Source of the DNA: Cenococcum geophilum 1.58
Lineage: Eukaryota; Ascomycota; Dothideomycetes; Gloniales; Gloniaceae
Direction: 5' to 3'
Assembly (NCBI GenBank): GCA_001692895.1
Contig: KV748211.1
Coordinates: 62,001-126,000, forward strand
Length of the DNA stretch: 64,000 nt
This document shows, piece by piece, positions 14,271-49,927 of the stretch. A program made the position numbers and the translations under genes. A model generated the notes under the pieces. The model was not told the origin of the DNA, ran no database searches, and was given only the letters and a program-made list of their open reading frames with translations. Numbering within the stretch: the stretch's first letter is position 1; every line of letters starts with the position of its first letter.

Positions 14271-14271
14271 T

Positions 14272-14770: not shown

Positions 14771-14799
14771 AACACGATTTTCTTCTTCCTTTCTTTTCT

Positions 14800-18769: not shown

Positions 18770-18807
18770 TATCAGGATTTTTTTTAAGTATGTTGTTGCA
18801 GTTTATG
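18770..18807 (+). repeat. Left terminal inverted repeat of G
   Basis: TATCAGGA followed by a T run and AAGTATGTTGTTGCAG. It pairs with the right terminus, where the same block reads AGGCACGTTATTGCAG. The differences are G-to-A and C-to-T. A nearby GGCAATTTGCTGCG (about 18810) starts the subterminal motif series. Confidence 0.7.
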
Positions 18808-19111
18808 GCAATTTGCTGCGAAACGTGCAAAACGTATAATTTAAGTAGTTATATATGGTCCTTACTAAGTTGCGCAAACCACACATTCCGTAATAAGTTT
18901 TTAGCATTTATAAGCAAACTGCGGCAAAATGCCTAAACGCCAAACTAATACCAGTATCTCCTACTCTGTAAATAAAAAGCGTACTATTAGTACAATATAT
19001 ATAAACTACTCCAATTATATGTTCTATTTACTATTTTAATAATATATAAACTATACGGACTATATAGTATTTACATCGCGTAATAACCAAGTTACTATAT
19101 ATATAATTTTT

Positions 19112-19151
19112 TATAGATTGCTATAGATTGCCACAGATTGCTATAGATTGC
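19112..19151 (+). repeat. Four 10-bp tandem repeats near the left end of G
   Basis: Four consecutive copies of TATAGATTGC, the third reading CACAGATTGC. The complement contains GCAATCT, the core that recurs near the other end of G. It may be a transposase-binding subterminal repeat, as known for CACTA-like elements; this is inference. Confidence 0.55.
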
Positions 19152-19179
19152 CTTCAAAAATATATTTATATTATAACTA

Positions 19180-21110
19180 CTATATAAAATAGCTACTTCT
19201 CTAAACCTATAATAGACCACAAAGCATTTGCCTTGCCTAGCCCCTTTTCTACCCTTGTTCTAAAGATATCTAGATCCTTATTATTAAATAGTATAGACTT
19301 AACCCCTTTTCTAATAGTATACTAAAGACTTACATTAGGTTTAGCCCTAAGCGTCTTTCTAAATAGCTTAACTGCAACTATTAACTGTTTGTAATTCTAT
19401 TAATATAGTATATTAATAGTACGTTTCCGATTCCGTAATTTTATACCTTTAAAGATAAGCTTATAGATATTATTTCCGAAATTATTACCAGCGCCACTAT
19501 CCTTATCTATATCTTCTCCACTATTTATACTGGCATTATTACCTGTGTCCGCTCTATTATATTTGTTACTACCCTTTCTTATACTATTCTTATTATCCCT
19601 ATTGCCACCTAGAGCTATATCCGTTCCATTATCCGCATCGCCATCTTTATCTATATTAACTCCACTATCTCTATTACAACACTTATTTATATTAATCCCG
19701 CTATCTATACCGCTATTAGGGTCGCTAATATCGTTAGGCCTACTACCTTAGTAATTAGTACTGTGGTCAGTTTAATTAGGCGACATATTATAGGGTATAT
19801 TAGGCTTAGTAACAGTACTAGAAGGGCGGAAGGTGTCTAGGTTTAAGGAAAGGGACGCGTTATATACCTAGATATAAGTATTAATCCAGAACTATTATTA
19901 TAAGTAGTTATATACCAGTAAAAGTATATTAAAGCGCTACTTATTAAATCCTGCGTTATAGTTAGAGTCTAGGTTAGAAAGATTATTAAGACTATATTTA
20001 AATAGATTTGGAATTACTTATATAGTAGAGTTGTTACCATATATAGTTACTTAAAGTCTCTTTAAGATGCCCTGTTATAAAAGCCCTAAAATCCGGTTCT
20101 AGCGCTCTATTAACTAATCTGCCTATATAGCCTTTATCCGTTCCTATATAGCTAATATTAGAGTTAGTTACGGTATAGCCTAGATAGTTAGAACGAGGGT
20201 AAAGAAAGAATAAATTACTGTTCAGTTTGGCACCTACTTTAAGCTTTTATTAGATAAAACTACTACTTTTCCGTTTATTAATAACGTGGCGGATTATTAT
20301 ATAAATTAGTGTAACAGCCCCAGGGCTAATTAGGCGTAGAAAGTGCTATATATCTATACTAAACCCAAATCGCCACTTTCCCTTAAAGAATAACTTAGAA
20401 AGACTAGCTATAATAACCAGTACTATAAAGCGGGATTTCTCGCCCTATAAATAGTTAGGAGGGTACCAAGGTAATATAGCTATGCGTACTATCTTAAAGT
20501 ATTAAAAGTCATTAATATGGAGTAGCTCTTCTACTTTATTAATTATTTCCTACTTAGAGAGATTTCTAAATAAGTACTTAGCCTTTATATAATCTTATAT
20601 ATGCCTTAACAGGTAAAACCAGAACTCGCTAATGCTATTATATATCTATTTTATGTTAGTATATATAGAAGTAATAAGAGGTAGCTTACTATATAATATA
20701 TTAATGGTAACGGCTCTTATATAGCCTCGCTAGAACCGTCGCCTTTAAAAACCCCATTATACTCTACTGCTTTATCCTATATAAAATCTATCGTCTTTTC
20801 CAGAGTTATTATATTCCCTTCTAGCTATAGTATAAGAGAAAGACCTTTAGGAGCCTTACCTAATATTACAAATATTAGAAAGAAGCGCACGGCAGCTTTT
20901 ACTATTAGTTTATCCGTAGGTTTTAATTTAGGTTTACTGCTATATATTACTCCTTACTATCTTCTAACTGCATCTATACTATATTAAGACTTCCGCGGTT
21001 TTTTACCGCGTATAGGCGCTATATAAAACGACTTAGCTATAGAGTTATCTTCAGCACTAGAGATAAGCTCTTAGGTAAAGGGATAGTAGCATTAAAGCCG
21101 CTTATTAGGG
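19180..21110 (-). pseudogene. Unidentified cargo gene of G with Asn/Gly/Asp-rich linker
   Basis: On the minus strand a protein-like frame runs from about 21110 to 19180, about 640 codons, with one apparent frame change near 20050 and many TAG/TAA stops. Early segments include SIAKSFYIAPIRGKKPRKS (about 21040), KPTDKLIVKAAVRFFLIFVI (about 20890) and GTLLTIYRARNPAL (about 20430). Then come KGKWRFGFSIDI (about 20370) and GYTVTNSNISYIGTDKGYIG (about 20135). A low-complexity acidic stretch follows (about 19500-19720), rich in Asn, Gly, Asp and Ser, such as DKDGDADNGTDIALGGNRDN. The C-terminus is basic (LRNRKRTINILY, about 19430). I do not recognise the family. It is convergent with the plus-strand relic downstream of it. 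Confidence 0.45.
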
Positions 21111-22500: not shown

Positions 22501-25500
22501 TTTAACTTCTTTCTATCTTGCCTTATTTTATAGCTAATTTGCCTAGATTTCTAGAGGTTAAATATACCGGATTCCCTATTAATTACGTTAGCCGTTTTTA
22601 TTTTTATTTTTGTTCTAAGGCCTCCTATAAGTTAATTAAAAGCTTAGTTTTAGATTTTTATTTCTTTACAAACTTATCTACGCGTATGCTATTAATCTAA
22701 AGAAAATCGTTATTATAGAATTGATTGTATATATCCCAATCTGTATACAAGTTTATTTAGAATGTTCTTCTTTTATCTAGCGAAGTTGGTATTAGTTATA
22801 TAGGTCTCTTAATATAGGAAATGTTATATATTTAGTGGCCATCTAAGTTTTATCTATTTTACACTATATTTATAGGAAATCGTTCCACTTTAATTATCCC
22901 ATTAAAAGGATTTACCTTGCCTCTATTATATGGACGGAATAGCTTAAAAAGTGCTCTATAGTATACTTAGTATCTACTATTTTCATCTATATAATTTAAG
23001 TCCTATACTAATACCAGCAATTCTAAACGGGTAGCCCGCGTTCCCTTTATTCTATCTAGTGCATTCTTATATTTTTATATAAGAACTTAGTCCCTTTATA
23101 AGGCAGTAATCTGCATCTAGACTAGGTTATAGCGTGCCCGTACTTTATATAGTCGATTAAGATTACGGGAGTCTTTACCGCGTCGAATATAGCATATTAT
23201 AAAGTAATAAATACTAATAGGTAAATCTTATACCTAGGCTGCATCCCTTTTAAGGCGCTTAACGTCTAAATTTATTGCTTATATACTATTAACTCGCTTA
23301 TAACATTCCCGTATAAACAAGGCTAGTTTTATAATAAATTTATTAATACCTAGCCTAGTCTAAATTTCGCAGGCTCTGCGCTATAAATTTAGGTTTATTC
23401 CGCATATAGAAAGCATTTAGTTAGTTAACTGGCAGTAATTCTATCTATACGGCTTATCTGTTAGGTTAACTATGCCTAATAATAATATAATGTATAAATC
23501 TTCTATAGTATTAGCTGCTAGTATTAGCTTTATATTTTCCTATAGCTTTATCTCTTATATTACTATAGTATTTATTAATTCCGTATTAAGATAAATTATT
23601 TACTCTTTATACCCTTTACGCTTATTTAATCTTTAATAGAAATTCTTTTAAGAAATATATGCCCTTTCGCTATACTCTGTTATAATTCCTATTAGGGCGC
23701 CAAATATATAAATTATCTCCGGATAGTGGGAAATTGTATAGAGTTTAGGTATATTAAAATTAGGTAGGTTTTTGTCATCAGGTCGGTACGGTAAAAACGC
23801 CTCTTTAGTTTTATCTATTTAATATAATGCAGCTTTAAGATATTTAATCGTATCTTTATTATATAATTTATATTCGGCTAATAATGTAAAGTTAACTATA
23901 GCATAAATAAATAGCATTGCCCCCTTATACCTATATAGTAACGGTACCACAACTAGTACAATCTAATAAAGAAGGGACTTATACATCTTTCTAGTCTATT
24001 AGCTTAACTCTATAAAGTTATTCCACCTAATTATACCCTTAAAGGGTTTAACCTTGGCGAATTATGCGGTTAGAAGATGTTTTACCCTATCCTTAGCAGA
24101 TAATAGGGTTTTTATACCACTTTAATTAGTTATTAAAACCCTCCCTTTTCCTTTCTTAATATTAAGCAGTAGTGCCTAAAGCTAGCTTATTAAATACTTT
24201 ATAACGCCTTTATATAGTTAATATAATAAATTAGGGGCTATTATAGCGTATATATCCGCTATATAATAGGACTAAGTAAAATTTTAAATTAGCCTAATAT
24301 ACTTAGGGTCGCTGCGATCTAGCTATAAGTTTTACTATTATTTAAGTTGCTTAATAGTTAATTTATACGTCCGTCGCGGCTATTTGCCGGATATAGTGCT
24401 TAGTAGGTTACTTTATTTATAAGGCGGTATATAATATATTATATAGTATTGCCCTAATTTTACTCCTATTAATATAATCTACTTTTTATAGTCTGCTATA
24501 AACCTAGTAAGTATAGGGTAATATTGCCGGATAAACCTATCTACGTATCGCATTAGTATACCCCGCCTAGTAGCGCGTTTAAGGGCTAGTTTTTATATTA
24601 ACTTAAATACTTACATACTACTAAGGTAAATACTTACGTTTAAACATAATACTTATTATTTAATAGTATGCATCTAGTTTGTTTATCCGGTTACTTAGTA
24701 AGTCTATAGGTATATAACCTAGCAGAAGCATTACTGGCCTGCTAGCTATACGTTAAGTCTTTAATAGGATATTAAGTATTATAATATAAACCGGATACGC
24801 CTTTTTATCTCCGGATAGTATAGTTAGCTTAGTTTAGTCGCTACTAGGTATTACCATAATAGCCGTCGTACTATTAGGTAATTAATCTTAGATCTTCTAT
24901 TAACGGTTAGCTGTATATGCCTCGTTATATACTTTATTACCTTTTATATTATCTTTAAATAGGAAATAACTGATTAGGAAGGCCACTACGCTAAGTATAT
25001 TACGGTAGTATATCTTTAGGTTTTTGCCATATATATTAAGTTCTATAATTCGCCAGCTCTTATTGCTTATACCTTTAGAAATAGAATATAGTTTTATCTT
25101 AACTTCTTTTGTATTTTAGTATAATATATATCCATCCCTTATATTTTTAATATAGGGGTCTTATAGCCACGCGTTTATTTCTTTTACTAATGTACTATTA
25201 CGTACCTACTAGGCAACTTATGCCTATTCTACAAAGCTTATAAAAGGATAGAATATATTATTATCTTTATTTATTCCATTTACTAGCTGGCTAGGCCTTA
25301 GTAGGTAGTTATAATCTGCAGTAGACTGCTAATTAGAGTTCCCCTCCGGGTAGCTAAGCAGGGTTCCTATATAGCGGCCAGTCACTTTATAATAAGTTTA
25401 GGTATAAAAGATATTTAAGGTAGAGAGGCTTATTACCGTATAACTGCGCGTTTTAGTACTAATTGGTTATTCTACTAGTGCTATATAGCTTAGCTCCTTT

Positions 25501-25643
25501 GCTAATATTAAGCCGGTATTTCCTATAATAGTTAGTAAAATATTTTTAATAGCGGTGTTAGTTGCTATAAGGTCGTGTACCCATTATTCTATAGTAAATT
25601 TGTCGTCTTTATATATATCTGCTTAAGCCTAAATTATAGGGTA

Positions 25644-27477
25644 ACGTGTTCTGCGGGCAAGCTGCCCATACGGGCATCCTGCCCACCTGCCCCACTACCG
25701 AGGGCAAATAATGCGAATTACTCAACCACAAATAATTGTATTTAGTGTAGCTATCTACTAGCTAGTTGCCTGCCGTCTAGGACACGTACGTGCCGTATGT
25801 TCTGTTGATTTGCACATGCTGCACTTGCATAGGGCTCGTTACAGTCGCTCTGCCTCTGCCGCTGCTGCCCCTCCTGCTATACCTTGCTAAGCAGCTTGTG
25901 CATAAGAGGCCCCTTCTGCTCCTAATAGAACACCTCCTCTAGCTATATACGTGCGCTTCTTTGCCCTCTTCCTTTTCTGGCGGTGGTTTTCCATATGTAG
26001 CCTCTCATTTTCAACTGCAAGTAGTATAGCGCTTAACATCGCCATTTCACACCCCTTAACAAGCTGGCTAAGCGCTTACTCTGTTGGACTTGGTGGGCTA
26101 TACGTACGCCGCTTAAGACAGCGCCTTATTAGGGCTGTTTGCTGTTATAATTCAGCAATATTGTGAGGTGTTTCAGCGGTCCAGGATACATTCGATGGTG
26201 GACGAGGTGGTGGTGTCTGATATTCAGTATGTAGCTGCGATAGCACGCGATCGGGGCTGTATGGAACAAGACCAGTAGCTGCAAATCCTGCCTGTATATT
26301 GTTTTGATGCAGCACTATTTGTCTAGCCTGCCTATACAGCGGTAAGAATTCGTGTTTATCTATATAATTAACACCGCGACCCATAAGCTGTTCGACAAGG
26401 TGTCCATAGGCCTGCTTTAGCGGCGAGAAACAGCCTATATCAAGAGGCTGCAGTATATGCGACGAATGCGCTGGCATATAGATAGTAATAATCTTACGAT
26501 CTAAGCAGAATTGATTGAATTCGGCGTTAATATGGCTGCCGTGGCCGTCCAGTATAAGCAGCCGATGCGTGCCAACAGTGCGATCCTTTGTATACTTATG
26601 GAATAGATTTAGCCAGGTAAGGCCAATCTCATTTGTTGTCTAGCCATTCTTACTAACACCAATCAACCAGTCGTGTGGAATAATATCGTTCTCGTACTAA
26701 GCAGCTTAATGCATTACTGCTTCAAAGATAACCAGCGGTGGAATAGCGCCCCCCAATGCATTAATACACTCGATAATTGTAACCCATTCTCGATTACCTG
26801 GCTATACTATTCTAGGCCGGCCAGCCCTATTAGTTCCAGTAACAACCTTTACAGTTGTAATAACGCCCATTTAAAAGCCAGTCTTATTAAAATTCCAGGC
26901 ATCTTTATTAAGAATCCTATATTATATCTTTATATCTTAAACGCGTTTAAACTAGCCCCAGATAAGCACAGGATCCTCGCATTTAGCACGCTGATAATCG
27001 TATTTGCGATTCCATTTAGATTATAGGTCGTCGTGGCGCTTAATAAAGTCGTATACCCATCGCTCACCAACTGGTGGTGAGCTAGGGTGCTGGGTAGCTA
27101 GCAGGCTAGCCATCTGCCGTACGGTCGCGATTCGTGGTGACATACCGCGTTGATCCATTGATAGAATCCACTGCTTAAGGCTCTCTTCTTGTGCTAGTGT
27201 AAGACGGCGATTTGGTGCAATAGAATCGCGTTTTAGTTTAATGCCCTTAACGCGTAGCCGGGCGGTACTCCGGGGCACATCGTACGTAGTAGTAGCGGCT
27301 CTAAAGCTTCGAAATTGGCCTTGCTTGTGGGCTTGAATAGCTAGATCAATTCTGCCCTCTTTGAAAAGGGCTTCTTGCTATTGTGGTGTAGGCATTAAGG
27401 TGGTAGTTAAGCAGCGCGTCGCGTGTATGATGGGGTGGGCAGGATGCCCGCATGGGCAGCTTGCCCGCAGAACACGT
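25644..27477 (-). mobile_element. Fot1/pogo-type DNA transposon with perfect TA duplication
   Basis: This 1834-bp element has inverted repeats of about 45 bp, ACGTGTTCTGCGGGCAAGCT at the left and its complement at the right, with one or two mismatches. It is flanked by TA at 25642-25643 and 27478-27479, the Tc1/mariner/pogo target duplication. It sits inside the 5' part of the Plavaka gene. It is markedly more GC-rich and less mutated than its host element, so it is a later arrival. Size, repeats and duplication match Fot1-like elements. Confidence 0.92.
25722..27395 (-). pseudogene. Pogo-family (DDE_1) transposase, 557 codons, stops but no frameshift
   Basis: A single uninterrupted register of 557 codons runs from ATG 27395 to TGA 25722. 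The N-terminal helix-turn-helix and CENP-B-like DNA-binding region covers about codons 20-125 (VPRSTARLRVKG, LTLAQEESLKQWI, GERWVYDFIKRH). The DDE catalytic domain follows: NFNKTGF, where NFDETGF is usual, then LLILDGHGSHI (second Asp), then HILQPLDIGCFSPLKQAYG (third Asp). Near the C-terminus is a C-x2-C-x4-H-x4-C knuckle, CSMCKSTEHTARTC, a feature of some fungal pogo proteins. About 15 stops, mostly TAG or TAA, plus the changed first catalytic Asp show inactivation by G-to-A/C-to-T change with no indel. It could still be a substrate for an active relative in trans, as its ends are intact. Confidence 0.9.
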
Positions 27478-28089
27478 TAGACATTATCCTATTAGTTAAG
27501 ATAGTCTATACTTATAGCTTTATAATATAGCTTATATCGCGCTAATCTACCTAAGGTAGATATTGTATGCTTACATTTAGGGCACTAGCGATTTATTAAG
27601 CCTATTATAATAATAACAAATGCGGCTCCTTATATTGTTATTAAGATTAGATAGGTATACCTAAAAAGGGCAGTAAATTGTATAACTAATCTAATGGCCG
27701 TAATCTGCTGCTAGCTATCCTAATAACTAACCATAACGCCTTACTTCTTTTAAATTGTAAGTTAAATATACTAAGTAGCATATTATCCTAAGCGCTAATA
27801 GTATATAAAGCAGTATTATATCCTACAGTACCTATTATAATTAATTTATAACCACCAAAACATTTATAAACCTTTAATCCCGCGTCCCTCGCTAACACTA
27901 TATCTACCTAGCATAGTAATAATATAATTAGATAGTATATATACTATAGAGGAGGCATAGTATAAGTCTATTAGTAAAACTCCTAGGAAGGATAAGCGGA
28001 TTATATCCGGGTTTAGTATTAGCAGCGCTCGTTTATATAAGATTAAAGGGGTAGTTAAGGACATTATAAATAAGAGCAATATAATATCT

Positions 28090-28720: not shown

Positions 28721-29289
28721 AGTCTTAATTATTCACTAGGAGTCCTACTTAAAAGGGTATATTAAAGCGGTCTTAATTAAGCTAAAACATTGATTTTAGG
28801 CAGGTAAAATATCCTAGGCGTATTAACCCTCGTTCTTAGATTACATATTCTAATATACTTCTAACTCCGCCTATTATACTAGTTATTTATAAAGAATATT
28901 TTTTATAACTAGAGGAAGCATATTTAGCGGCAATTTACTATAGCAAATTGCCCTTTAACGCGTGCGCGTTATATTTCATTAGTAAGAGTATTTACCTTAG
29001 GCTTATCCACTTTACTTTATACTCTTTACCTCTACTACCTTAACCAACTCTTGCACGGCGCCTCTACACAACATTAATTAGTTAATTAATTAGTTTAACC
29101 GCTAATTGCTGCTTTAAGCTACGACTTGCTTCCTAAAACTACGGCAATCTGCCTAGCAGATTAACTCTTATAATTGGTTTATCTTACTTACCTACTTTAG
29201 ACCTGCACCTTTACTAAACACTAACTAGATTCTTCTACTTTTATATAACAACGCTCTACTCCTTCTTTATTCTATCTTAGTATCTTTAT

Positions 29290-32200
29290 ATATTATAATA
29301 AAGGACTCGGATATTATAAAGGGATAGAATATTAATACTTATCGCCTTAAGGAAATTAAGAGATACAATCCTAGATAACACATAAGAGGCCAGGCTTAAA
29401 AAATCCACGTTTTATACTCCAAAGATAAAGTGCCACGCGATTAGTTTATTTAAAAGATTTCTAGCGACTTACCTAAGAAGGAACGTGCTTTAAACAGCTA
29501 GTTTAGATAGGCTATTATTCCTTTTATGTTATCCTAGAGAACTAATACTACTAAACGGCAAAATAATATAAAGTTAGAACCTAGAAGTTAGAGTTAAACC
29601 TAATTTAAACCTATAATAACGCTAGTATATACATTTGCTTCCAAGCCAATCTCTAAATTACACGGTTTTACATCACTAAATAAGCCGTTCTTACTTAAAA
29701 ATATAACCTTTTAGTTTTAAAGAATAAACCTAATTACCTAAAAGCACTGTAGAGCTTTATATAGTCTATAAATTTTAAAAGGCAATATAGAAACTCTAAG
29801 AGTTAAAGAAATTAGTCTCTGGCTATTTTAAGAGGTTATAGCATTAGTAGGTTTTATTTTAGACAAGGATAAAATTACCTAGCTTAACGTGGTTACTAAT
29901 AAAGAGGTTTATATTACCTAGTAAAGGCTATTATAAGCCGTATTTTAGTAGTATATACTATATAACGGGGGCAGAGTGGAATGTATACTTAAGAGTACGG
30001 ATTATAAGTTCCTTTAATAATATTTAGCTATCTATATACTAATAATTGCAGCTAAGCATTTAATTATAAAAGTACCGTACTAATTACTAAATAAGTAGGG
30101 TATAAACCCTCCTAGAATTACCGATACTCTAACCCACCAGTATTCGCGCACTAAGGCCGCACTTAAGAAACGGTAGAAGATTACGCCTAAGCCGATCTAC
30201 AAGCACTTAGATATTAAGTTTATTAATAAAGACAGCGAGAATAAGAGCGATGCTTTACCTATCTTATTAATACGCAGCGGCATTCTAAGTCTACTAAGTC
30301 TAAAGAAACGTAATTATAAAAGGGAGTAACCTACTAGAGGTATTTATGGGTAAACTATAGTAAACCGCGGTAAGCCGCTAGGAATAGCTGTAATAATCCA
30401 ATTATCTAGCCTATAGATAATCCTAATAATAATAGAGCACGGTAAGGGTAATTATAATACTCCCTAGAGCAAAACTACTTTATATTCCTAATTAGCTCAG
30501 ACTCTATATAATAATTTAAACTCTATATCCGTAAAAGCTTTCCTTAGTAAAACTATAGAAACTAATGCGATCTAAGATACCTTAGGTAAAAATGCGCTTA
30601 AGAATAATATAATCTAAGCTAAGGAGATATAGGTTATAATGCCTATTGCGTAAAGGTATAAGTATATAGTTATATAAAGTACATCTTAAATTAGACTAAT
30701 ATTAGCTCTTTTTAGATTTTAAGAGGCCGCTATAACTAAAGCAGGAGGTAAGGTTTAAGTAGTAAATATATAAACGTTCGGCTAAGCTATATAGAGTTCC
30801 TAAAAAGGCCGTCTTAATAAAGAACCTGGTCCTTATTCCTAGTAATAGGGTTTAAATCTAAAGTTTAAATCATTCCTATACTAGCTGTATAGCGTATCTA
30901 AGATATTCCACTAAGAGCGCACGCAACTAAATAGTGGTGTTTTTGCTAATGGTATAGGAATCAAAAAAATCGTAACCGCGTACTTAACTATTATTCTTAG
31001 TTACCACTATACTATAAACCTAGACAAAGTAGCCACTAATTAAGCGGCTAGGAATACGAATTAGTATCTATAGAAGGATAACTAAACTAAAGACGCTAAG
31101 TGTCCTAGCTAGGACAAGATACCTTTTCTATACTTATATATAAATTAAAACGCTATATCTATAATATAAAGACAGTATAGTGCAAATTTAGTTATTATAA
31201 TTCCAAGTATAATTACTAGTTAGAGAGATAATTATATCTTATTATTTAAGGACTTTACGCTTATAATAAAAGAGTAGACGCTACTACGGTTTATAATGTG
31301 CCATAAGACAGAAGATATATCTAAAGGAATAGCGCGACTAAACCCTTAGGAATAGCTTTAAATGGGGACTTTAGGGGACTAGTTAGATCACGATATAATA
31401 AATAATAGTCAGACTTTTATGGGTAAAAAAAAACGCCCTACTTATAGTTCTTTAACGGCCCCCTATAGAAGTATACAGACCATTATAACTACGCTCTTTA
31501 GCAGAATCTTATAGGATAAGTTTTATAATAAAAAAAATTAAGAAACTTATATTAACTAATTCCTTTATTCTTAAAAAAAAAGTGGTACCGCTATACCTAA
31601 GATTCTTTACCTAGGCTATTTCTAGCATAGTAATAGAGAATAGTGTTATAGATATATGCTGGTTTATTATAAGCGCCCTTAAAGATATAGATTGGGCAAC
31701 CGCTTAAGCTAACCTAGTATTTTTAGAAAATATACGTTTGCGGAAGTTAATAAAATAGCTAAACTATAGACCCAATTTTAAAGCAGGGAAGGAGTAACCC
31801 TAAAAGTGCCTTGCAGTTTACGATATATAAAGAATTAGTTAAGGTTAGTGGCCTAATTCCCGTAAATTTTCTTATTCGCCGTAATAGGGATACTATTAAC
31901 TTTAATAACTAAAAACTAAAAGCTGTCCCAGGCGAGCTCTAAATTTAATATATAAAGTATAATTATAAAACTAAAGAACTTAAATTCCTATATAGTATAG
32001 AAGGTGCAATAGTGTTAGAAATAGAAGAGGTATTTTAGCAGAAAATAGTCAAATGGAGAGAAGATGGTTCTCCTACTGGGAAAAAACTAGCACAAATGGC
32101 CAGCAGCTCCTTAAGCAGCTACTTTACGTGCTATAATGCAGTAATAACGCCCGGGTTACTTTTATAGAAGGATAGATTTAATAAGGATCTTCCGGATAAT

Positions 32201-32755: not shown

Positions 32756-32885
32756 TATAGTAGTGATATATTTTTAATCCTTTTAGCGCGGAATTAGGTA
32801 ATACGCTAGGTAGTTTACTGTAAATTCTTTTTTAGTGGAAGAAGTATAACAGACTATTATTTTTAGAATTAGGTAATAGAATGGG

Positions 32886-33096
32886 TGTTATAGCTTAAAT
32901 AAATGCCTCTAAACCAAAGCTTGAACGAATACTGTATTACAAAGATACTAAGCTAAAGAAAAGGAAAAGGGGTTGCTAGGACCGATGTAAACAAATATAT
33001 AAAGTAAGCCGCTAAGGCGCTAGCTTTAGGCGGGCTAATTATAAGTCGGCAGAATATGGTAGAATTTAGCAGGTAACGTGCGATAGCGCCGTTATA
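32886..33096 (-). repeat. 3' LTR of Gypsy B
   Basis: 211 bp, TGTTATAGC...GTTATA on the plus strand, next to the polypurine-tract complement (TTACCCCCCTCTTT). It is the same family as the LTRs of A. Confidence 0.85.
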
Positions 33097-38857: not shown

Positions 38858-39068
38858 TATCACGGCTTAAATAAATGCCTCTGAACCGAAGCTTAAACGA
38901 ATGCTATATTACGAAGATACTAAGCTAAAGAGAAGGAAAAGGGGTCGCTAAGACCAATATAAACAAATATATAGGGTAAGCCGCTAAGGCGCTAGCTTTG
39001 GGCGGGCTAATTATAGGTCAGTAGAATATGGCAGAATTTGGCAGGTAATGTGCAATAGCGCCGTTACA
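38858..39068 (-). repeat. 5' LTR of Gypsy B
   Basis: 211 bp, TATCACGGC...GTTACA on the plus strand. It pairs with 32886-33096 and is followed by the target duplication ATAGG. Confidence 0.85.
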
Positions 39069-39073
39069 ATAGG

Positions 39074-40235
39074 CAGTATTCTGCAGTTTTACAGTTAGTA
39101 AAAGGCAAATACTAGATTTTTTTATTATAGAATTAAGTAATATACTCGGCGATGTGCCGCAGTTTTACGGCTAATGGAAGGTATATACTAAGTTATTTTT
39201 TATAAAACTAGGCAATATATCGGTAATATACTGCAATTCTTTTATTAATAAGAGAAGTGTACTATTTTGCTATTTAAGGAACCGGGTAATACGCGGGTAA
39301 TATATTATAGTGCTCCGTTAATAAAAGAAGCTGCTAGCTTGCGATATGGGAACCAGGTAATATGCGAGCTAATATTTAGAATACTCTACTTATAAGAGTA
39401 GCCTATAGCTTACGATATAGAAAATAGGTAATATATAATCGGATATATTACAGTGCTCTATTAATAAGAGATATCTGCTAGCTTATAATATAGGAACTAA
39501 GTAACGTATAATTAGATATATCGTAGTGCTCTATTAATAAGTGGCGCCTATTAGTTTACTATTTAAGGATCTAAGTAATACGCTAGGCTATATATTGTGG
39601 TGCTCTATTAATATAGTAAGTCTGCTAGCTTATAATATAGGAACTAGGCAATATACGAGCTAATATATTAAAATAATCTACTAATAGGCGACGACTACTA
39701 GCTTGCAATTTAAAGAATTAGGTAATATACCTAGCAATATACGGCAACTTCGTACTTAGTAATAGAAGTTTACTAGCTTACCGCTTAAGGAACTAGGTAG
39801 TGTGCTAGGCAATATATAGCAATTTCGCGCTTAGTAATAGAAGTTTGCTAGCTTATTACTTAAAGAACTAGGTAATATACTAGGCAATATATAGCAATTT
39901 CGCGCTTAGTAATAGAAGTTTACTAGCTTACCGCTTAAGGAACTAGGCGGTATGCCAGGCAATATATAGCAATTTCGCGCTTAGTAATAGAAGTTTATTA
40001 GCTTACCACTTAAGGAACTAGGCGATATGCTAGGCAATATATAGCAATTTCGCGCTTAGTAATAAAAGTTTACTAGCTTACCGCTTAAGGAACTAGGCAA
40101 TATATAGGCAATATATAGTAATTTCGCGCTTAGTAATAGAAGTTTATTAGCTTACTGCTTAAGGAACTAGGCGATATACTAGGCAATATAAGGCAATTTC
40201 GCGCTTAGTAATTAAAGTCTACTAGTTTACTTTTT
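39074..40235 (+). repeat. Tandem array of about 75-bp units after helicase copy 1
   Basis: Successive units carry AGGAACTAGG, GGCAATAT and GCAATTTCGCGCTTAGTAAT. In the best-preserved part (39750-40235) the last block recurs at about 39827, 39901, 39977, 40051, 40126 and 40201, a period of 74-76 bp. Older, more diverged units fill 39074-39700 and continue before Gypsy B at 32760-32880. No coding potential is seen. Confidence 0.8.
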
Positions 40236-40245
40236 AAGGTAGTAA

Positions 40246-40950: not shown

Positions 40951-40954
40951 ATAA

Positions 40955-42360: not shown

Positions 42361-42929
42361 TATAAAATAATCAAAATAATACGTAAATTCTATACTTAGC
42401 TAAGTTATTACCTTTTTATATAAGTAGCCTAGGTAGGGTTTACAAAGTTTAATAAACTAATAATTTAGTTTAGTTCTTAAATCTTAAAGATTATAACTAT
42501 ATAAGACTTATACTACCTAAGGCAATCTACTACAAAATACCGCTAAACTTAGTATTCTGCGTATTCACTAGAACTTCTTAATTTACCTTGCTATTAATAA
42601 GCATTAAATGACAGCAATTTGCCTACTAGTATTACTTAACTTTAATATCCACTTCCCCTAACTCTTTACCTCTACTACCTTAACTAACTCTCGCACGGCA
42701 CCTCTACGCGATATTAATTAGTTTAACCGCTAATTGCTGCTTTAAGCTGTAACTTACGCCCTAAAACTGCGGCAATCTGCCCGGTTAATTAATTCTTATA
42801 ATTAGTTTGTCTTACCTACCTACTTTAGACTTACACCTTTACTAAACACTAATTAGATTCTTCCGCCCTTATATAGCAACGCTCTACTTCTCCTTTATTC
42901 TATCTCGGTATCTTTATATATTACTATAA

Positions 42930-45900
42930 AGAACTTAAATATTATAAATAGATGGAAAATTAATGCTCGTCGCCTTAAGGAAATTAAGAAGATAATCTTA
43001 GATAGTATAATAGAGGCTAGGCTTAATAAAGTCGTGTTTTATACTGCTAAAGATAAAATACTACGCGATAACTTTATTTAAAAGGTTCTTAGCAACTTAC
43101 CTAAGAGGGAAGGTGTTTTAAAGAGCTGGTCTAAAGATACTATTATTACTTTAATGGTATCTTAGAGAACTAATGCTATAAAACGGTAAAATAAGTTAGA
43201 ACTTAGAAGTTAGACTTAAACTAAATTCAAACCTATAATAACGCTAGCGCCTACATTTACTCCTAAGTAAATCTCGGAATTACTAGGCCCTACATTATTA
43301 GGTAAGCCGCTTTTACTTAAAAATATAACCTTCTAATTGTAAAGAATAAACTTAACCACCTAAAACACCATAGAGCTTTATACGATTTATAATATTATAG
43401 AAGCTAACACAGAAACCCTAATAATTAAAGAAATTAGTTTCTCGCTATTTTAAGAGATTATAGCATTAGTAGGGTTTAACTTAGACAAAGATTAAATTAT
43501 ATAGGTCGATATTAAATCCCATAAGGAGGCTTATATTACCTAGTAAGGGGCATTATAAGTCGTATTTTAGCGATGCATACTATACTATAGAAGTAAAGTA
43601 AAATTTATACTTAAGAGTACCGATTATAAGTTCTTTTAATAACATCTAGCTATTTATATACTAATAATTACAGCTAAGCATTTAATTATAGAAATATTAT
43701 ACTAAATACCGCGTAAGTAAAGCATAAACCCTCCTAGTATTACCAATACCCTAATTCGCTAGTCTTTACGCGGTAAGCCTATATATAAGAAACGGCGGAA
43801 GACTACGTCTAAGCAGACCCGCAAGTACTTAGAGTACTTAGATAATAAGTTCATTAATAAAGACACTAAAAGTAAGAGCGATGCTTTATTAACCTTATTA
43901 ACGTACAGCAGCATTCTAAGTTTCTTAGGTTAGAAGAAACGTAGTTATAAAAGGAAGTAACCTGCTAGAGTATCTAAAGGCAAATTACGGCAAGCTACTA
44001 AGGACGGCCGTAGTAGTCTAGCTATTTAGCCTATAAGGGGTCCTAACAGTATAGAGGAGAACGAAGACAATTATAATGCTCTCTAAAGCGCAACCGCTTT
44101 AGATCCTAAACTAGCTTAACTATAGGTTATAACTATAGATGATCTAACTAGTAATATTATACAAATTTCTACAGAAGATAATAACCTAGAAGAAGAGGCT
44201 TTTAAAGATATAATAAACGAAGCTAATAGGGAGATAGAGGCAGCTAATTGTATTAAGTAAAGGTATAGGCATATAAGCATATAGAGTACATCTTAAATTA
44301 GACTAACGTTAGCTTTTTTTAGATTTTAAGAAGCCGCTACAGCAAAAGTAGGCGGTAAGGTTAAGAAAATAGAGCAGTAGATATATAAACGCTTAGCTAA
44401 GGTATATGGGGTTTCTAAGGGGGCCCTTTTAGGGAATAATATAGTCCCCGTTCCCTATAGATAGGGTTTTAATTTAAAGTTTAGAGCGTTCCTATACTAG
44501 CTATATAGTGTATCTAAGATATTCTACTAGAAATGTATAAAGCTAAATAATAGGGTTTTTATAGACGGTATAGGGACCGGTAAAATAGTAACCGTATACT
44601 TAACTATTGTCCTTAACTACTACTATGCTATAAACCTAGATAAAGTAGCTACTATTTAAGCGGCTTAAAATGCTATTTAATATCTACCAAAGGGCTATTA
44701 AGCTAGCAGCGCTAAGTGTCCTAGCTAGGATTAAGTGCCTCTACTATACTTATATATAAATTATAACGCTATATCTACAATATATAAATAGTATAGTGCT
44801 AGCCTAGTTATTACAGTTCTATATATTATTACTACCTAAAGAGATAATTATATCTTATTATTTAAAGATTTACCACTCGTAATGTAAGCGTAGGCACCGC
44901 TAAGAGTTGTAATATACTATTTAATAGTGGATGTTTCTCCGGGTATAGAGCAGCTAACTTTAAATAAGTGGCTAAAAATAGGAACGTTAGGAAACTAGAC
45001 CGCCTATAATACTTTAAATACTTATTAGGCTCTTATAGATAAAGCAAAAACCCCTTACCTATAGTTCTCTAATAGTGTCCTACTACTTAGAAAGGGCAAT
45101 TCTTTAGTTAGTACCCCGGCCGCCTTAGTAATAAGATTTATTATAATTATAATATTTAAATGCCTAAAACAGCGTATTATTAACAACTTTATAATTACTA
45201 AAAGTGTTTACCGCTTCTTATTTAGCGGTAAGCAAGAAGATAAAGGTTAGCAGTTAGTTAAGACTACGTTTTTTAGTAGGGTTTTATAGGATAAGTTTTA
45301 TAACAAGAAGAATAAAAAGACTATAGTTAACCAATTTCTTTATTTCTATAAAAGTACTATACTAAAACGCCTTAAATTCTTTATCTAGGCTATATTAGGG
45401 ACTCTAATAGAGAATAGTGTTATAGATATATGTTTGTTTATTATAAGTGGCCTTTTAGATCTAGATTAGGCAAGCGCCTAAGACAATAACATTTTTAAAA
45501 AATACACGTCCGTCAAAGTTAAAAAAAATAGTAAAGCTATAGAGTTATTTTTTAAAATAAGGAAAGAGTAACCCTAAAGGGGTCTTATAGTCTACGGTAT
45601 ATAAAGAATTAGTTTAAGTTGGCGGAGAAATACTTATAAACTTTAAAATTCGCTATACCTTAAATACTATTAGCTTTAATAGAAAAAAATTAAAAGTTAT
45701 TTTAGGCGCGCTCTAAACTTACTACCTAAACTATAAGTATAGAACTGTAGAAATTGAATTACTATAGGGCATAGAGAGTGCAATGACGTTAGAAATAGAA
45801 GAGGTATTTTAGTAGAAAATGGTTAAATAAAAAGAAGATGGTTCTCTTAAGGGGAACTAATCAGTATAAATAGCCGGTACCTCCTTAAGCACCTACTTTA

Positions 45901-48845
45901 CGTGCCGTATTATAGTAATAATGCCTAAGTTACTTTTATGGAAGGATAGATATAATGTAACCGACTACCGACACTGTGCTGAGACACAAGATNACCGCTT
46001 GGAAGGATCCAAGACTGCGTCAACGCCACCCTATATATTGATTGCAGATCAATATTGCTTGCAGATCACTGTTCCCATTTCAGTTGCCTATCACCTTTTT
46101 ATGTCTTATTTCCTCCACCTTCTTCGTGTATATATAGAGGCTTTAGAGCTGCATTTACAATTAAGTCGTTTACTCTTTCCTACACACTGCAAAGCTTATA
46201 GTTATAAGCCCGGATCGCACTGCCTGCTAAGCAATTACCTAAATCGCACTACCTGTTGCACTATCTTAATCTACTACCTTATTTAAGAAGTCACTACTTC
46301 TACCACCTTTACAAGTGTATTGAGCTTCTTCCAGGTACCTCTCTTGTACTTATAATTACCCTTAAATATTAAACGAACGGATAATTAACGCTAACGGACA
46401 ATTAACGCTGACGGACGAACAAACTAATGAATTAAATTAAAGCTTCGGAACGTTAAAATAAGGTTCTACTAAGACGCCAATTAGACCCTGCCTAACCTAT
46501 TAAAATCCTAAAAATAACAACCACAAATGAATTAAAAGTTAATCTCATCCTTAACGAGCCATCTAATTGGATCCTATAGTTCTTTATTATTTAAGATATA
46601 GCCAAAACGAATAAGATATGGCGATATATTGACCCGTCCAAGAAGAAAGATAAGCTTCCAACGCTAGAACTACTGAAACGGCCTACACCAACGGACGTAC
46701 GACCTATGGCTATATTAATAACCCAGCTAGAACAAGACCAATTCGCTATCTATAACTAGCTCTATTCCGAATACAAAGACGATCTCCGTATACACGAGAA
46801 GCGAGAATAGGCTATCAATAATATCAGCAACTATATCGTTCGCTCGATGTTAGTAGCCTACCTTCCCCTTATTAACGGCCTAGATTCGGTCTACGAACGG
46901 CTTAAAGCACTTAAGAAAGCGCTTACCCCTACCACCTTAGGTTAAAAGCACGACGTCCTTAATTAATACACGGCTTTAAAAGCCTATAATATAACACAGA
47001 GTATTAATAAATGGTTAAGCAGCTGGCGGAACATCTATAAACTTGCTAAGCAATTAGACCTACCAGACGTGCAAAGCTTTAGGCCTTACTACGACTTCGT
47101 TCAAGCAATTAAGCCTATCTCTTCTAGCTTCGTAGGAGCTCTAGAAGTAGACCTTATTCGCAAGGAACGCAAGGGTAAAGTAGCCCTATCTATTATTGAT
47201 CTTATTAAGGAATTTAAGGAGCACTATTATATGCAGCAACAAGCGTCTCCTACCACTACTGCTAACTACTCTGCATTTGCAACATTTTAAAATAATTCCC
47301 CTGTCTTACTAATAAAGATATGCCTCTGTAGTAAAGAACACCTATTTTAGAAATGCCAATATCTAATTAAGAGCCTAAGACCCTATGGGTGGGTACCTAA
47401 TAAGAAAATATAACAACGAATTAATAAAAAGCTTATAAAATATAAGAGACTTGCTGTTGCTATTAAGAGAGCATAAAAGGAGGCTTCCTAGAGGATGCCT
47501 ACTACCACTATTAATGATTAGATTATTGAGATCTGATTTCCTCTTTAAATACAGTCTCCTAAGAGGCTAGAGAGGACACCTCTTTAAATATAGTCTCCTA
47601 AGAGGCTAGAGAGGACATATCGTTAAACATAGTCTTCTAAGAGGCTGGAGAAGATACCTTTTAAATATAGTCTCCTAAGAGGCTATGGAGGATATCTCTT
47701 TAAACACAGCTCTATATCCAGAGATATAAAGCTAGGAATAACCATCTTACCCTATTCCTTTGCTACTCCTAATTTGTATCCAAATTTCCTATTTTTTGAT
47801 ATAGTCTCCACCTTCATTTTTATTTTCTATAGCTTTAACTACACCGTTAAATCTGGGGGGGTGTATAACCGACTACCGACACTGTGCTAAGACATAAGAT
47901 TACCGCTTGGAAGGATCTAAGACTGCGTCAACGCCACCCTATATATTGATTGCAGATCAATATTGCTTGCAGATCACTATTCCCATTTTAGTTGCCTATC
48001 ACCTTTTTATATCTTATTTCCTCCACCTTCTTCGTGTATATATAGAGGCTTTAGAGCTACATTTACAATTAAGTCGTTTACTCTTTCCTACATACTGCAA
48101 AGCTTACATATAATAAGGATCTGCTAAATAACGACAAAATTAATATATAAGCGAAATTTCACGCAAAATTAATTAAATCTCCTATTAGAAGCATCTTAGA
48201 TAAAAATAAGAAGGAAATTCTTTACGGTAACACAAAATTTAAGGCGCTTTTAGTTATCTATAAAGAAGTTATATAATTAAAAAACGTCGGGGGGTATTAT
48301 AGTAAGGTTATTATTGGCACTGATTTTCTAACTATTAGGGCAGTATATATAGCAGTAAGTAATAAAACACTCTATTTTTTTACCTTTTAATAGTAGCTTG
48401 CTTAACTGGAACTCTAAGCTAATACTTATTTTAGGCCTTGGTTACTAAATATAGCGAGGACGCTGTTATATATCTCCCTGGAGGAATATTGCTAAAGTAA
48501 AAAAACTATATTATCTATAACTTATAGAAGCAGCTAAGTGGACTATAGATTCTTTTATTACCTCTAAAGGCTATTATAGAGGGTATTACCCTTAATAAGG
48601 TATACTTTATTATGCTTATAGAGCTTAATCTATTCTTTAGTAAATAGGAATAGTTTATATACCACATTTACTAAATTAGCTAAAAAAAACCCTCTTATAA
48701 TAGCATATATTTTGTATAACACGGCTTCCTGTATTAAGGTTAAAATTCTAAATAAGTATAAGTTTAAAAAGACCGCCGCGGATAAGATATTAGATGTAGA
48801 TATAAATAAGCCAGGGAGTTTAAAGGAGTAGCTAGTAGAAGTGCT
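42930..48845 (+). pseudogene. SNF2-like (superfamily 2) helicase relic, copy 2, interrupted by D1
   Basis: This copy shows the helicase motifs best. Walker A is VFIDGIGTGKIVTVYLTIVL (about 44553-44612), followed by NYYYAINLDKV. A motif Ia-like segment ends in RDNYILLFKDLP (about 44840-44875). The motif II position reads IDKAKTPYL (about 45035-45062), where DEAH-type IDEAHTPY is expected. A conserved IENSVIDICLFIISGLLDLD block lies at about 45408-45467. After D1 (45956-48108) the C-terminal lobe includes a motif VI-like stretch with YFIMLIELNLFFSK and QKKPS-like sequence (about 48600-48690). SNF2-type spacing between the two lobes fits. Stops are frequent, so it is dead. The duplicated gene is an unusual passenger for a Plavaka element. 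Confidence 0.55.
45956..48108 (+). mobile_element. D1, gag-only Copia-like LTR element (non-autonomous)
   Basis: Fossil LTR element of 2153 bp. The LTRs are at 45956-46200 and 47862-48108 (TGTAACCGAC...AAGCTTACA) and an exact TATAA target duplication flanks them. The internal part codes only for a Copia-type Gag (about 46450-47400, with NWIxWFF-like start and a C-x-C-x3-H-x4-C knuckle near 47320-47355). A polypurine tract with seven G precedes the right LTR. No protease, integrase or reverse transcriptase is seen, so it depended on another element. The LTRs are nearly identical and the damage is light, so it is among the younger insertions. One ambiguous base lies at 45993. Confidence 0.85.
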
Positions 48846-48849
48846 CTAG

Positions 48850-49665
48850 CGAGGTATTTTTAATATTTTAGCACAGAATTAGGTAATATGCTAGGCAATT
48901 TGCCGCAAAGTTTTATCTTATAAAAGAAGTATACTAGGCTATTATTTTAAGAATTGGGAAATATAGTAGGCAATATACCGCAGTCTTATAGCTAATGGAA
49001 TGCATATGCTAGGGGTTTTTTTTAGTGGAATAAGTAATGTTTCTTAGTAATATACTACAGTCTTACAGTTAATAGAAGGCATATTAGGTTATTTTTTATA
49101 AAATAGGGCGATATATCGGTAATATGCCGAAATTCTTCTATTAATAAGATAAGTTTACTATCTTACTATTTAAGGAGCTAGGTAACGAGCGACCGGATAT
49201 ATTATAGTGCTCTATTAATAGGCGATAACTACTAGCTTACTATTTAAGGACCTAAGTAATACGCTAGGCGATATGTTATAATGCTTTATTAATATAATAA
49301 GTCTACTAGCTTGCGACGTAGGAACTAGGCAAATACGAGCTAATATATTAGAATATTTTACTAATAATAGGCGTCGCTTACCAGCTTGCAATTTAAAGAA
49401 TTGGGCAATATACCTAGCAATATACTGTAACTTCATGCTTAGTAATAGAAGTCTACTAGCTTACCGCTTAAAGAACTGGGCATATACTAGGTAATATACA
49501 GCAATTTCGCGCTTAATAATAGAAGTTTACTGGCTTGCCGCTTAAGGAACTAGGCGATATGCTAGGCAATATACGGCAATTCTATACCTAATAATTGGAG
49601 TATACTAGGTAATATATAGCAATTTCGTATTTAATAAGAGAGCTCTACTAGCTTACCCCTACGGT
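48850..49665 (+). repeat. Tandem array of about 75-bp units after helicase copy 2
   Basis: Same repeat family as 39074-40235. Units contain GGCAATTTGCCGCA, GCTAGGCAATAT and GCAATTTCGCGCTTAATAAT, about ten or eleven units in all. The array lies just inside the right terminus of G, a position usual for subterminal repeats that bind transposase; that role is inference. Confidence 0.75.
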
Positions 49666-49711
49666 TATACTTCCTATACATTAGTTATAGTAGCTAGTTA
49701 TAGCGGCTAGG

Positions 49712-49927
49712 CATTAGGATTTTTTTTAGGCACGTTGTTACAGCTAAAAGTTAGGGTCTGCTTAACTTAGCAATTTATAGCGATTTACTACAAATACGCA
49801 GGCTACCCATATATGTTTATAGCAAATCGCTATAAATCACCGCAAATCGCCAAAATCGCGACTTAAGCGAGTTAAGCAGACCCCAATTTTTAACTGCAAT
49901 AACGTGCCTAAAATTTTTTTCCTAATA
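49712..49927. repeat. Foldback at the right end of G: inverted duplicate of the terminus
   Basis: CATTAGGATTTTTTTT followed by AGGCACGTTGTTACAGC opens this segment, and its reverse complement (GCAATAACGTGCCT...CCTAATA) closes it. GGGTCTGCTTAACT appears in both arms, and the inner parts also pair (ATTTATAGCGATTT). The arms are about 90 nt with one arm about 40 nt longer. It looks like a complete miniature element of the same family placed at, or forming, the right end of G. Confidence 0.75.

Follow-up and report, generated by a model that had tools for sequence, protein, structure and literature searches.

The window, a stretch of 64,000 nucleotides of contig KV748211.1 of Cenococcum geophilum 1.58, very probably holds one copy of a family of giant cut-and-paste transposons of the Plavaka lineage, about 21 kb in length and with PlavakaB-like ends. 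This reading is built on the ends, the 2-bp duplications, the empty sites, the collinear copies, the matches to the Plavaka and DUF6532 profiles and the SNF2-type C-terminal lobe. The stretch 18770-49927 is a single DNA transposon lodged in a Gypsy retrotransposon (Gypsy A). Gypsy A occupies 15057-18769 and continues from 49928 onwards, and the insert is flanked by CT on either side. Gypsy B, which lies inverted at 32886-39071, is unbroken at the site matching the insertion point of Gypsy A. The left terminus at 18770 reads TATCAGGA(T)n...GTTGTTGCAG, and the right terminus, which ends at 49927, reads TATTAGGA...GTTATTGCAG as the reverse complement. Both are degraded forms of CATCAGG: the window copy reads TATCA..TAATA, the full form CATCA..TGATG is present at both ends of copy C3, and C-to-T or G-to-A forms are present at one or both ends of the other copies. 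The total span of 31,158 bp is reduced to approximately 20,985 bp when the nested Fot1 element (~1.84 kb), Gypsy B (~6.19 kb) and an LTR-like element (~2.15 kb) are subtracted, and the uninterrupted copy C23 is 21,027 bp long. The sequence-only reading of this DNA had proposed a giant Plavaka-type transposon of about 21 kb that has terminal inverted repeats at 18770 and 49927 and precisely interrupts Gypsy A, and the termini, the CT duplication and the size agree with it. Rfam gives no match anywhere in the window. The features are listed in Table 1.

Table 1. Positions in the window of the transposon, its genes and its nested inserts
Feature	Position	Strand	Remarks
Target duplication CT, left copy	18768..18769	.	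In Gypsy A
Left terminus TATCAGG...	18770..18802	+	CATCAGG, CATTAGG or TATTAGG in other copies
Probable second part of DUF6532 gene	19112..19867	-	Gly/Asn/Asp-rich stretch, then basic region; 83% identical to C23
DUF6532 (PF20149) part of second gene	20001..20729	-	Coordinates transferred from C23 by copy alignment
Plavaka transposase, second part	22586..24592	-	PF18759 positions 195-325 and C-terminal region
Plavaka transposase, first part	24624..25639	-	PF18759 positions 41-187; open segment resumes at 27480-27629 past the Fot1 insert
Nested Fot1/Pogo-type transposon, outside the unit	25642..27479	.	46-bp inverted repeats, DDE_1, HTH_Tnp_Tc5; missing in six copies
Unit 1, decayed SNF2 duplicate	~29004..32885	+	Frameshifted, without motif VI region
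Nested Gypsy B, outside the unit	32886..39071	-	207-bp LTRs; missing in six copies
Array 1, 73-75-bp tandem repeats	39070..40239	.	
SNF2-type ATPase, N-terminal part	42746..45574	+	Motif I (IGTGKT) and motif III (AILGTxIENGVIDIYWFI), read by eye, without profile match
SNF2-type ATPase, middle part	45618..48387	+	Split in window copy by LTR-like element
Nested LTR-like element, outside the unit	45957..48105	+	241-bp direct repeats, 96% alike; missing in six copies
SNF2-type ATPase, C-terminal lobe, motifs V-VI (QEQFIYRIYQISQENP)	48435..48849	+	Frame lost at the end of the lobe in window copy
Array 2, 74-75-bp repeats, subterminal	48887..49660	.	
Right end block	49712..49927	.	Inner inverted terminus CATTAGG at 49712, outer terminus at 49927
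Target duplication CT, right copy	49928..49929	.	

Dozens of copies of the element family are present in the genome. Six further copies, each read from end to end, align collinearly with the window copy at 88.5-89.4% identity across 20.3-20.7 kb; they have the same genes between ends of the same kind, and none of them contains the three nested inserts. The 2-bp duplications match in 14 of the 15 copies for which both ends were read; they are TA in eleven copies and CT, AT and TT in one copy each, and the single mismatch is TG/TA. The right ends of C53 and C91 each offer two motif candidates, and the candidate inside the end sequence of the family was chosen. Empty sites, which the sequence-only reading had proposed as a check, are found for four of six insertions, such that the joined flanks match sequence elsewhere that spans the junction. 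All copies examined are ruined, mostly by RIP-like mutation, and none is intact; the two-state columns of seven copies comprise 4,619 transitions versus 240 transversions. The left end of the window copy is unusually diverged from its relatives, with transversions of 8-11% versus 0.9-1.0% in the body, and the ends therefore seem to have been exchanged between elements.

The helicase region is found at 38 loci, into which 43 matches were merged, five of them being second pieces of loci already present. The left end is located upstream on the same strand at no fewer than 32 of these 38 loci, the window included, when approximately 0.7% per locus is expected at random. Among the matches listed, a Plavaka match on the expected strand accompanies at least 27 loci, a DUF6532 match on the expected strand at least 15, and either a left end or a Plavaka match in the expected arrangement at least 33. 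These counts drew on 40 of 58 left-end, 31 of 123 Plavaka and 16 of 76 DUF6532 matches.

The Plavaka profile of Pfam (PF18759), against which the sequence-only reading had suggested its Plavaka-type transposase be checked, matches the minus strand of the window in two frames, at 24684-25019 (E 3.3e-14) and 24188-24583 (E 1.7e-9). The scores are, in the same order, 53.3 and 37.8 bits in the window, and they are 75.9 and 58.8 bits in C23 (E 4.4e-21 and 6.8e-16), all above the curated cut-off of 26.3. The stretches SSDxT, ADYxEQ and NFNIPKLxxISHYPEI...E are retained. According to the available part of PMC12730594, Plavaka transposases carry two motifs, C(2)C and H(3-4)H, in the region from the second D to the last E, and PlavakaB elements have the termini 5'-CATCA..TGATG-3' and target duplications of 2 or 3 bp. 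What may be the histidine pair, H(3)H-like in spacing, reads KLYxISHY/YY in the decayed copies, with Y(3)H in some and Y(3)Y in others. The cysteine pair is not visible in the decayed transposase copies, possibly because it has become Tyr through RIP. The termini of the element, with their full form in C3, and its 2-bp duplications are of PlavakaB type. Judged by profile, termini and duplication length, the element is classed as a Plavaka, probably of PlavakaB type. Elements that are CACTA/EnSpm in the strict sense have 5'-CAC..GTG-3' termini and 3-bp duplications, as far as the available part of the same source describes them; with its CATCAGG ends and 2-bp duplications, the element does not belong among them.

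The SNF2 gene was recognised by multi-copy alignments. When a six-copy profile of the C-terminal lobe is compared with PDB at E values up to 1, all seven sequences retrieved are SNF2 proteins (RAD5 at E 0.0023, the other six at 0.22-0.44), with Snf2/Rad54 and DDM1 among them. RAD5 is the single match (E 0.088) when stops are replaced by X. Helicase_C of Pfam is matched in the lobe of four of six members (best E 0.00097) and of two of seven in a second set. These matches assign the C-terminal helicase lobe to the SNF2 type. The N-terminal part gives no match in PDB and none to an SNF2 model in Pfam, and its AlphaFold model is uninformative (mean pLDDT 32). No SNF2 match is obtained with Pfam at E up to 1 in the six frames of 18770-32886 and 39072-49927, and the genome matches of PF00176 (SNF2_N) do not extend to the SNF2 loci of the element. 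An NTP_transf_7 match (best E 0.0048, below the cut-off) is put down to chance. The sequence-only reading had described two SNF2-like genes, of which the right one (42746-48849) is upheld and the left one turns out to be a frame-broken duplicate that lacks motif VI.

Stops shared by all copies occupy 27 of 1,233 codon columns in the SNF2 frame, the fewest of the six frames (the remaining plus frames have 75 and 94, the minus frames 66, 90 and 36). Transversions, the substitutions on which the codon comparison of nine RIP-mutated copies was based, fall in this frame on third, first and second positions 38, 36 and 29 times; the third-position enrichment is not significant (p 0.25), so that selection on the SNF2 frame is not proven. 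The density of transversions per kb is 6.9 in SNF2, 6.8 in Plavaka and 11.3 in unit 1; when the window copy is excluded, the region between the units is at 2.4, below SNF2 at 3.8. The phase of the transversions between unit 1 and unit 2 gives no codon signal (100/99/103). An SNF2_N stretch (PF00176) is located 11.5 kb from a Plavaka match at C4:5.27 Mb, and the two are oriented to each other as in the element. This distant relative, at C4:5.28 Mb, matches 111 residues around motif I of the SNF2 of the element, with 31.5% identity and a best E of 3e-10, and gives no match to the C-terminal rows of that SNF2.

One of the gene relics that the sequence-only reading had left unidentified contains DUF6532, which is matched by Pfam in the corresponding stretch of C23 (E 2.9e-14, 53.9 bits versus a cut-off of 24). 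Pfam does not match the stretch 19112-19867 by itself, where plus-strand frames likewise score as open. DUF6532 lies beside a second Plavaka family, with the two about 15.3 kb apart, in at least 33 of 60 DUF6532 matches, a count for which 60 of 76 DUF6532 and 67 of 123 Plavaka matches were used. The same reading had held that the additional genes are cargo that moved as one unit. The six collinear copies agree with one unit, but "cargo" is perhaps a misnomer: DUF6532 also lies by the second Plavaka family and a distant SNF2 relative lies near another Plavaka match, so that both may be components of the lineage. The one mention of DUF6532 in the open-licence literature searched, in a Ganoderma comparison, groups it with KDZ, Plavaka and other domains only in parasitic or symbiotic fungi. 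Reading frames were sought with the commonest residue per codon column, and such displays represent the sequence of no actual copy. Apart from the arrays, the highest values in the shared-stop scan belong to the genes for Plavaka and DUF6532 and to the right SNF2 unit. Because the arrays, whose alignment is poor, reach up to 14.2, and the SNF2 antisense strand and the left end score as well, the scan is a guide, not a proof. The lesser segments at reference positions 3045-3912 (5.1, 6.1) and 13579-15216 (4.5, 4.2) have no Pfam match, and unit 1 has no segment above 4.

The element might alternatively be a composite, in which a small Plavaka of normal type, made up of the left end and the transposase, took as its right end a terminus of a separate short inverted-repeat element further along, enclosed DNA of the host or of another element (SNF2 and the arrays), with SNF2 as passive cargo, and was then amplified. 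The right 146-235 bp are indeed bounded by an inner and an outer terminus like a complete miniature element, in ten of ten right ends and also in the window and C23, and short inverted pairs of the right end occur elsewhere in the genome. The non-significant third-position enrichment in the SNF2 frame would also suit passive cargo. However, passive cargo has no need of the fewest shared stops in that frame, and the SNF2 relative at C4 is found at similar spacing near another Plavaka match. A motif scan of the element reveals no convincing internal relic of a right end. Eight short inverted pairs that were fetched (L060-L067) show no matching 2-bp duplication: the motif is found at both ends of one pair, and its flanks are TT/TA. 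Three of these MITE-like pairs share a flank, which may mean that they belong to a larger repeat. A composite origin is considered unlikely.

The two SNF2-plus-array blocks are arranged in tandem and are 75% alike, as they would be if they were transposons in their own right, inserted into or beside a Plavaka. Both blocks, however, are identically placed in the seven full-read copies, and they lack flanking ends of the type of this family, to which the scan was limited. Helicase units with their own boundaries, which would speak for such insertions, were not seen; six of the 38 helicase loci are without a left end among the matches listed, and at least 33 of the 38 have a left end or a Plavaka match arranged as expected. 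Independent blocks are considered very improbable. Duplication of a segment carrying a chance cluster of transposon relics, without transposition, would account for the stops that abound in all copies examined, but it is contradicted by the defined ends, the matching 2-bp duplications, the differing flanks and the empty sites, and can hardly be credited at all.

If the window holds a giant Plavaka transposon, its DDE transposase would have excised the 21-kb unit at the CATCAGG ends, and the unit would have been inserted mostly into TA dinucleotides. The spread of the element would date from a time when its genes were still open, and repeat-induced C-to-T mutation would have ruined its copies later. 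The block of SNF2 and array was probably duplicated in tandem, after which the left block decayed. The 75-bp arrays close to the right end are candidates for repeats that bind proteins. Most likely, the SNF2 ATPase worked for the element against the chromatin of the host, whether it opened copies that had been silenced or removed nucleosomes from the ends; other PlavakaB elements similarly carry a TET/JBP dioxygenase. This anti-silencing role of SNF2 is an inference. It is conceivable, though somewhat doubtful, that a giant Plavaka lineage carries an SNF2 remodeller (nearest PDB match RAD5) and DUF6532 as standing parts of transposition, a counter-silencing kit parallel to TET/JBP. In that case, SNF2 and DUF6532 would be hallmarks of the lineage, and DUF6532 would gain a mobile-element context. 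The results suggest that a set of helper genes of their own travels with some Plavaka elements. Irrespective of this, they provide a 21-kb transposon that bears an SNF2-type ATPase and has documented boundaries, target duplications and empty sites, and the domain of unknown function DUF6532 gains Plavaka as a recurring neighbour. TET/JBP genes carried by transposons have been suggested to overcome silencing (PMC12730594, available part), and an SNF2 remodeller in a TET/JBP-bearing transposon lineage would represent a second anti-silencing route and makes the idea testable. No mention of Plavaka and SNF2 together was found in the open-licence literature searched.

AcademH and KolobokH are likewise DNA transposons that encode a helicase, and they are tied to DEAD/Helicase_C domains in the available part of PMC10799480. 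The only transposase matches in the Pfam scans of the element are those of Plavaka and of the nested Fot1-type element, and in view of the Plavaka transposase an AcademH identity was rejected. Starships have as their hallmark a DUF3435 tyrosine recombinase at one end; no DUF3435 match is found with Pfam in the six frames of 18770-32886 and 39072-49927, and a Starship identity was rejected. Starships resemble the element as giant cargo-moving elements of Pezizomycotina, but they are classed by their tyrosine recombinase (PMC12134995, available part), whereas the element is marked by terminal inverted repeats and 2-bp duplications and encodes a Plavaka transposase. The enlarged En/Spm (CACTA) elements of Chondrus crispus (16-20 kb, four to five ORFs; cited in the available part of PMC6431247) likewise belong to the wider CACTA clade as large DDE transposons with extra genes, but they come from a red alga, and the likeness is one of size and gene number. 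In the six-frame scans of the two stretches named above, the element gives no match to a TET/JBP dioxygenase, unlike TET/JBP-bearing Plavaka, although decay could mask one. The PlavakaB elements of Agaricomycotina (Kojima 2025, PMC12730594), as described in the available part of that paper, share with the element the CATCA..TGATG termini, the duplications of 2 (or 3) bp and the Plavaka transposase, and some of them bear an extra chromatin gene, TET/JBP, as the element bears SNF2. By these descriptions, the element is set apart from them by its SNF2-type ATPase and DUF6532, its 73-75-bp arrays, its size of about 21 kb and its RIP-like mutation.

The insert interrupts Gypsy A at 18769/49928, as read from the window sequence, and the intact target is kept in Gypsy B, an inverted and uninterrupted paralogue of Gypsy A. 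The target carries a 2-bp CT duplication (...AGCTAAG... becomes ...GGCT / insert / CTAAG...). Inverted repeats are located at the insert ends, TATCAGGA(T)n..GTTGTTGCAG and TATTAGGA..GTTATTGCAG. The genome (177.19 Mb, 162 contigs; the window is C36:62001-126000), taken as fungal on account of its transposons and its mutation pattern, was searched at the DNA level, giving at least 58 matches to the left end, at least 88 to the right end and at least 43 to the right helicase region, and with the PF18759 profile, giving at least 123 matches. Six further copies, named here by contig, were read at full length in addition to the window copy. All six are collinear with the window copy over the region matching window 19112-49607; towards the extremities, the last few hundred bases give weaker or partial alignments. 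The three elements nested in the window copy (see the table) are missing from all six. They are 88.5-89.4% identical to the window copy over 20.3-20.7 kb. The uninterrupted copy, C23, is 21,027 bp long, and C4 and C31 are 21,381 and 21,395 bp long; C26 (22,266 bp), C19 (27,988 bp) and the window copy (31,158 bp) contain larger insertions.

Among the matches listed, 32 of 38 helicase-region loci, window included, have a left-end match no more than 60 kb upstream on the same strand, for which the chance expectation is about 0.7% per locus. A Plavaka match on the expected strand accompanies 27 of these 38 loci, a DUF6532 match on the expected strand 15, and either a left end or a Plavaka match 33. 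Among the same matches, the left end is not found at six of the 38 loci, nor the helicase region within 90 kb of six of 40 left ends, which is not proof of absence. The helicase regions of C29, C64, C60, C39, C25 and C140 form a subfamily (85-86% alike); in C29, C64 and C60 the right-end match lies about 5 kb past the helicase region, compared with about 2 kb usually.

Matching 2-bp flanks are detected in 14 of the 15 copies with both ends readable: TA in eleven, CT in the window copy, AT in C3 and TT in C80. The mismatch is C4b, with TG on one side and TA on the other. This count does not include C48, C13 and C33, whose right end was not found at its predicted place, C32, in which the left end was not found, or C41 and C37, for which the sequence retrieved covers one end each. 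The termini are CATCAGG..CCTGATG or C-to-T/G-to-A forms thereof. The 85-base flanks of six copies, once joined, were matched against all fetched sequences and the window; a sequence running across the junction with a single copy of the duplication was found for four insertions (window, C31, C4 and C19), and the empty sites of the window, C4 and C19 insertions lie in Gypsy A or B. No empty site was found among these sequences for the C23 and C26 insertions. This pattern of ends, duplications and empty sites is that of insertion and speaks against segmental duplication as the source of the copies.

Over 101-279 aligned bases, the left end of the window copy (18770-19112) shows 8-11% transversions relative to those of the six other copies, compared with 0.9-1.0% for the body. 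The left-end divergence is far above the body divergence, and therefore an exchange of ends between elements or subfamilies seems to have occurred and is likely, as judged from these alignments. In all ten right ends read, as well as in the window copy and C23, the last 146-235 bp form a right-end block whose inner side carries an inverted terminus. The main rival explanation is that the element was born by the joining of the ends of two elements, and both this inner terminus and the exchanged-looking left end leave room for it. Short inverted pairs of the right-end sequence are present elsewhere in the genome (C52, C59, C11, C22, C58 and C6); in the pairs read, no matching target duplication was seen.

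Coordinates of nested elements, the right-end block and examples of the second family (window positions unless a contig is named)
Feature	Position	Remark
Nested Fot1	about 25642-27479	in the window copy only, compared with six further copies
Nested Gypsy B	32886-39071	absent from six further copies
Nested LTR-like element	45957-48105	absent from six further copies
Right-end block of window copy	49712-49927	resembles a miniature inverted-repeat unit
Second giant Plavaka family, example	C16:947768-963958	DUF6532 and Plavaka on opposite strands
Second giant Plavaka family, example	C30:1374123-1390617	DUF6532 and Plavaka on opposite strands
Second giant Plavaka family, example	C49:851693-868118	DUF6532 and Plavaka on opposite strands

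Across seven aligned copies, two-state columns comprise 4,619 C/T or A/G columns and 240 transversions. About half of the transitions lie in CpA/TpG contexts, and the (CpA+TpG)/(ApC+GpT) ratio of the element is 0.48. These features are the signature of repeat-induced point mutation. In the body, transversions separate any two copies at 0.13-1.03% of positions, so the copies were almost identical when mutation set in. Every listed PF18759 match contains stop codons inside the Plavaka match. The nested Fot1/Pogo-type transposon, with 46-bp inverted repeats that are 98% complementary and a GC content of 47%, lacks RIP-like depletion; it is a recent arrival within the Plavaka gene region. The nested LTR-like element, for which the frames covered by the Pfam scan yield no match, and another at 57317-59785, outside 18770-49927 and in the opposite orientation, both have direct repeats of about 240 bp.

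PF18759 (Plavaka) matches two minus-strand stretches in the window (E 3.3e-14 and 1.7e-9). In this family of about 21 kb, the domain is split by an intron-like break of about 100 bp, and the conserved D, D, H-like and E regions can be made out across copies. A frame that was open in the ancestor should show few columns in which every copy has a stop. On this premise, the top sense segments outside the tandem arrays, in alignment (reference) positions, are 15969-20234 on the plus strand (window 42.7-48.8 kb), and 7177-3940 (Plavaka) and 2047 down to the left end on the minus strand. The third gene carries DUF6532 (PF20149; E 2.9e-14, 53.9 bits, cut-off 24), its second part being less certain.

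The plus-strand gene is of SNF2 type. By eye, motif I reads DGIGTGKTVT, motif III AILGTxIENGVIDIYWFI and motifs V-VI ILLLSLKAIIEGITLNKxYFIMLIELNPSFSKQEQFIYRIYQISQENP. With stops as X, a C-terminal profile of seven copies matches only RAD5 in PDB (E 0.088). With TAA/TAG as Gln, a six-copy profile gives seven PDB matches at E<=1, all SNF2 proteins, the best being RAD5 (E 0.0023), followed by Snf2/Rad54 and DDM1 entries (0.22-0.44). Pfam Helicase_C is found in two of seven and four of six members of these sets, respectively. The N-terminal part gives no PDB match and no SNF2 Pfam match, and a PF00176 search of the genome (72 matches) did not reach the helicase loci of the family. All-copy stops occupy 27 of 1,233 codon columns in the SNF2 frame of nine aligned copies, versus 75 and 94 in the other plus frames and 66, 90 and 36 in the minus frames. 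Two indels common to both second-subfamily copies are 3 and 6 bases long; single-base differences are also present, one of which recurs in an A-run and another of which is seen in one copy. Transversions at codon positions 1/2/3 number 36/29/38. The third-position excess is not significant (p 0.25), so that purifying selection on this frame is not demonstrated; transversion density across element regions gives a mixed picture. The left unit is a duplicate of the right unit (75% alike), from which it differs by 302 transversions spread evenly over codon positions. It has no strong coding segment in the shared-stop scan and lacks the motif V-VI stretch.

A second Plavaka group is matched in a single frame, without the break. 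Among the matches listed, 33 of 60 DUF6532 matches outside the family of about 21 kb have an opposite-strand match of this group no more than 35 kb away on the expected side, and in 18 of these 33 the spacing is 15.0-15.5 kb; the wrong-side control gives 3. Therefore, by match positions, two giant families of this genome combine Plavaka with DUF6532. At C4:5283598 there is a PF00176 match (24.7 bits; 26.3 with in-frame neighbours; cut-off 24.9) at a distance of 11.5 kb from a Plavaka match at C4:5271674; the two are oriented to each other as in the family of about 21 kb, and thus Plavaka with SNF2 is possibly present in two giant families. The translated C4 relative matches the element SNF2 in three of five rows (best E 3e-10), with 31.5% identity over 111 residues around motif I; the C-terminal rows give no match to it. 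This locus is possibly a third giant family. The SNF2 relative there (C4:5283200-5286400) is less decayed. More stop-riddled SNF2_N matches are found at C75, C71, C72, C36:7153 and C100:6354, several with a 202-aa open frame and some near contig ends; these are perhaps a separate repeated SNF2 family.

Among open-licence papers (titles, abstracts and passages) on Plavaka, DUF6532, and giant or helicase-bearing transposons, no such element was found; none of these papers brings up Plavaka together with SNF2, and DUF6532 turned up in one. In the passages of PMC12730594 on PlavakaB, these elements have CATCA..TGATG ends and 2-3-bp duplications, and the element agrees with both features and also matches the Pfam Plavaka profile. 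It falls outside the strict EnSpm/CACTA definition in the same passages (CAC..GTG, 3 bp). Some PlavakaB elements carry TET/JBP genes according to these passages (PMC12730594), and the element differs from them in giving no TET/JBP match. Of the systems compared, the nearest in size are the Chondrus En/Spm families, described in the relevant passages of PMC6431247 as 16-20 kb long with 4-5 ORFs.
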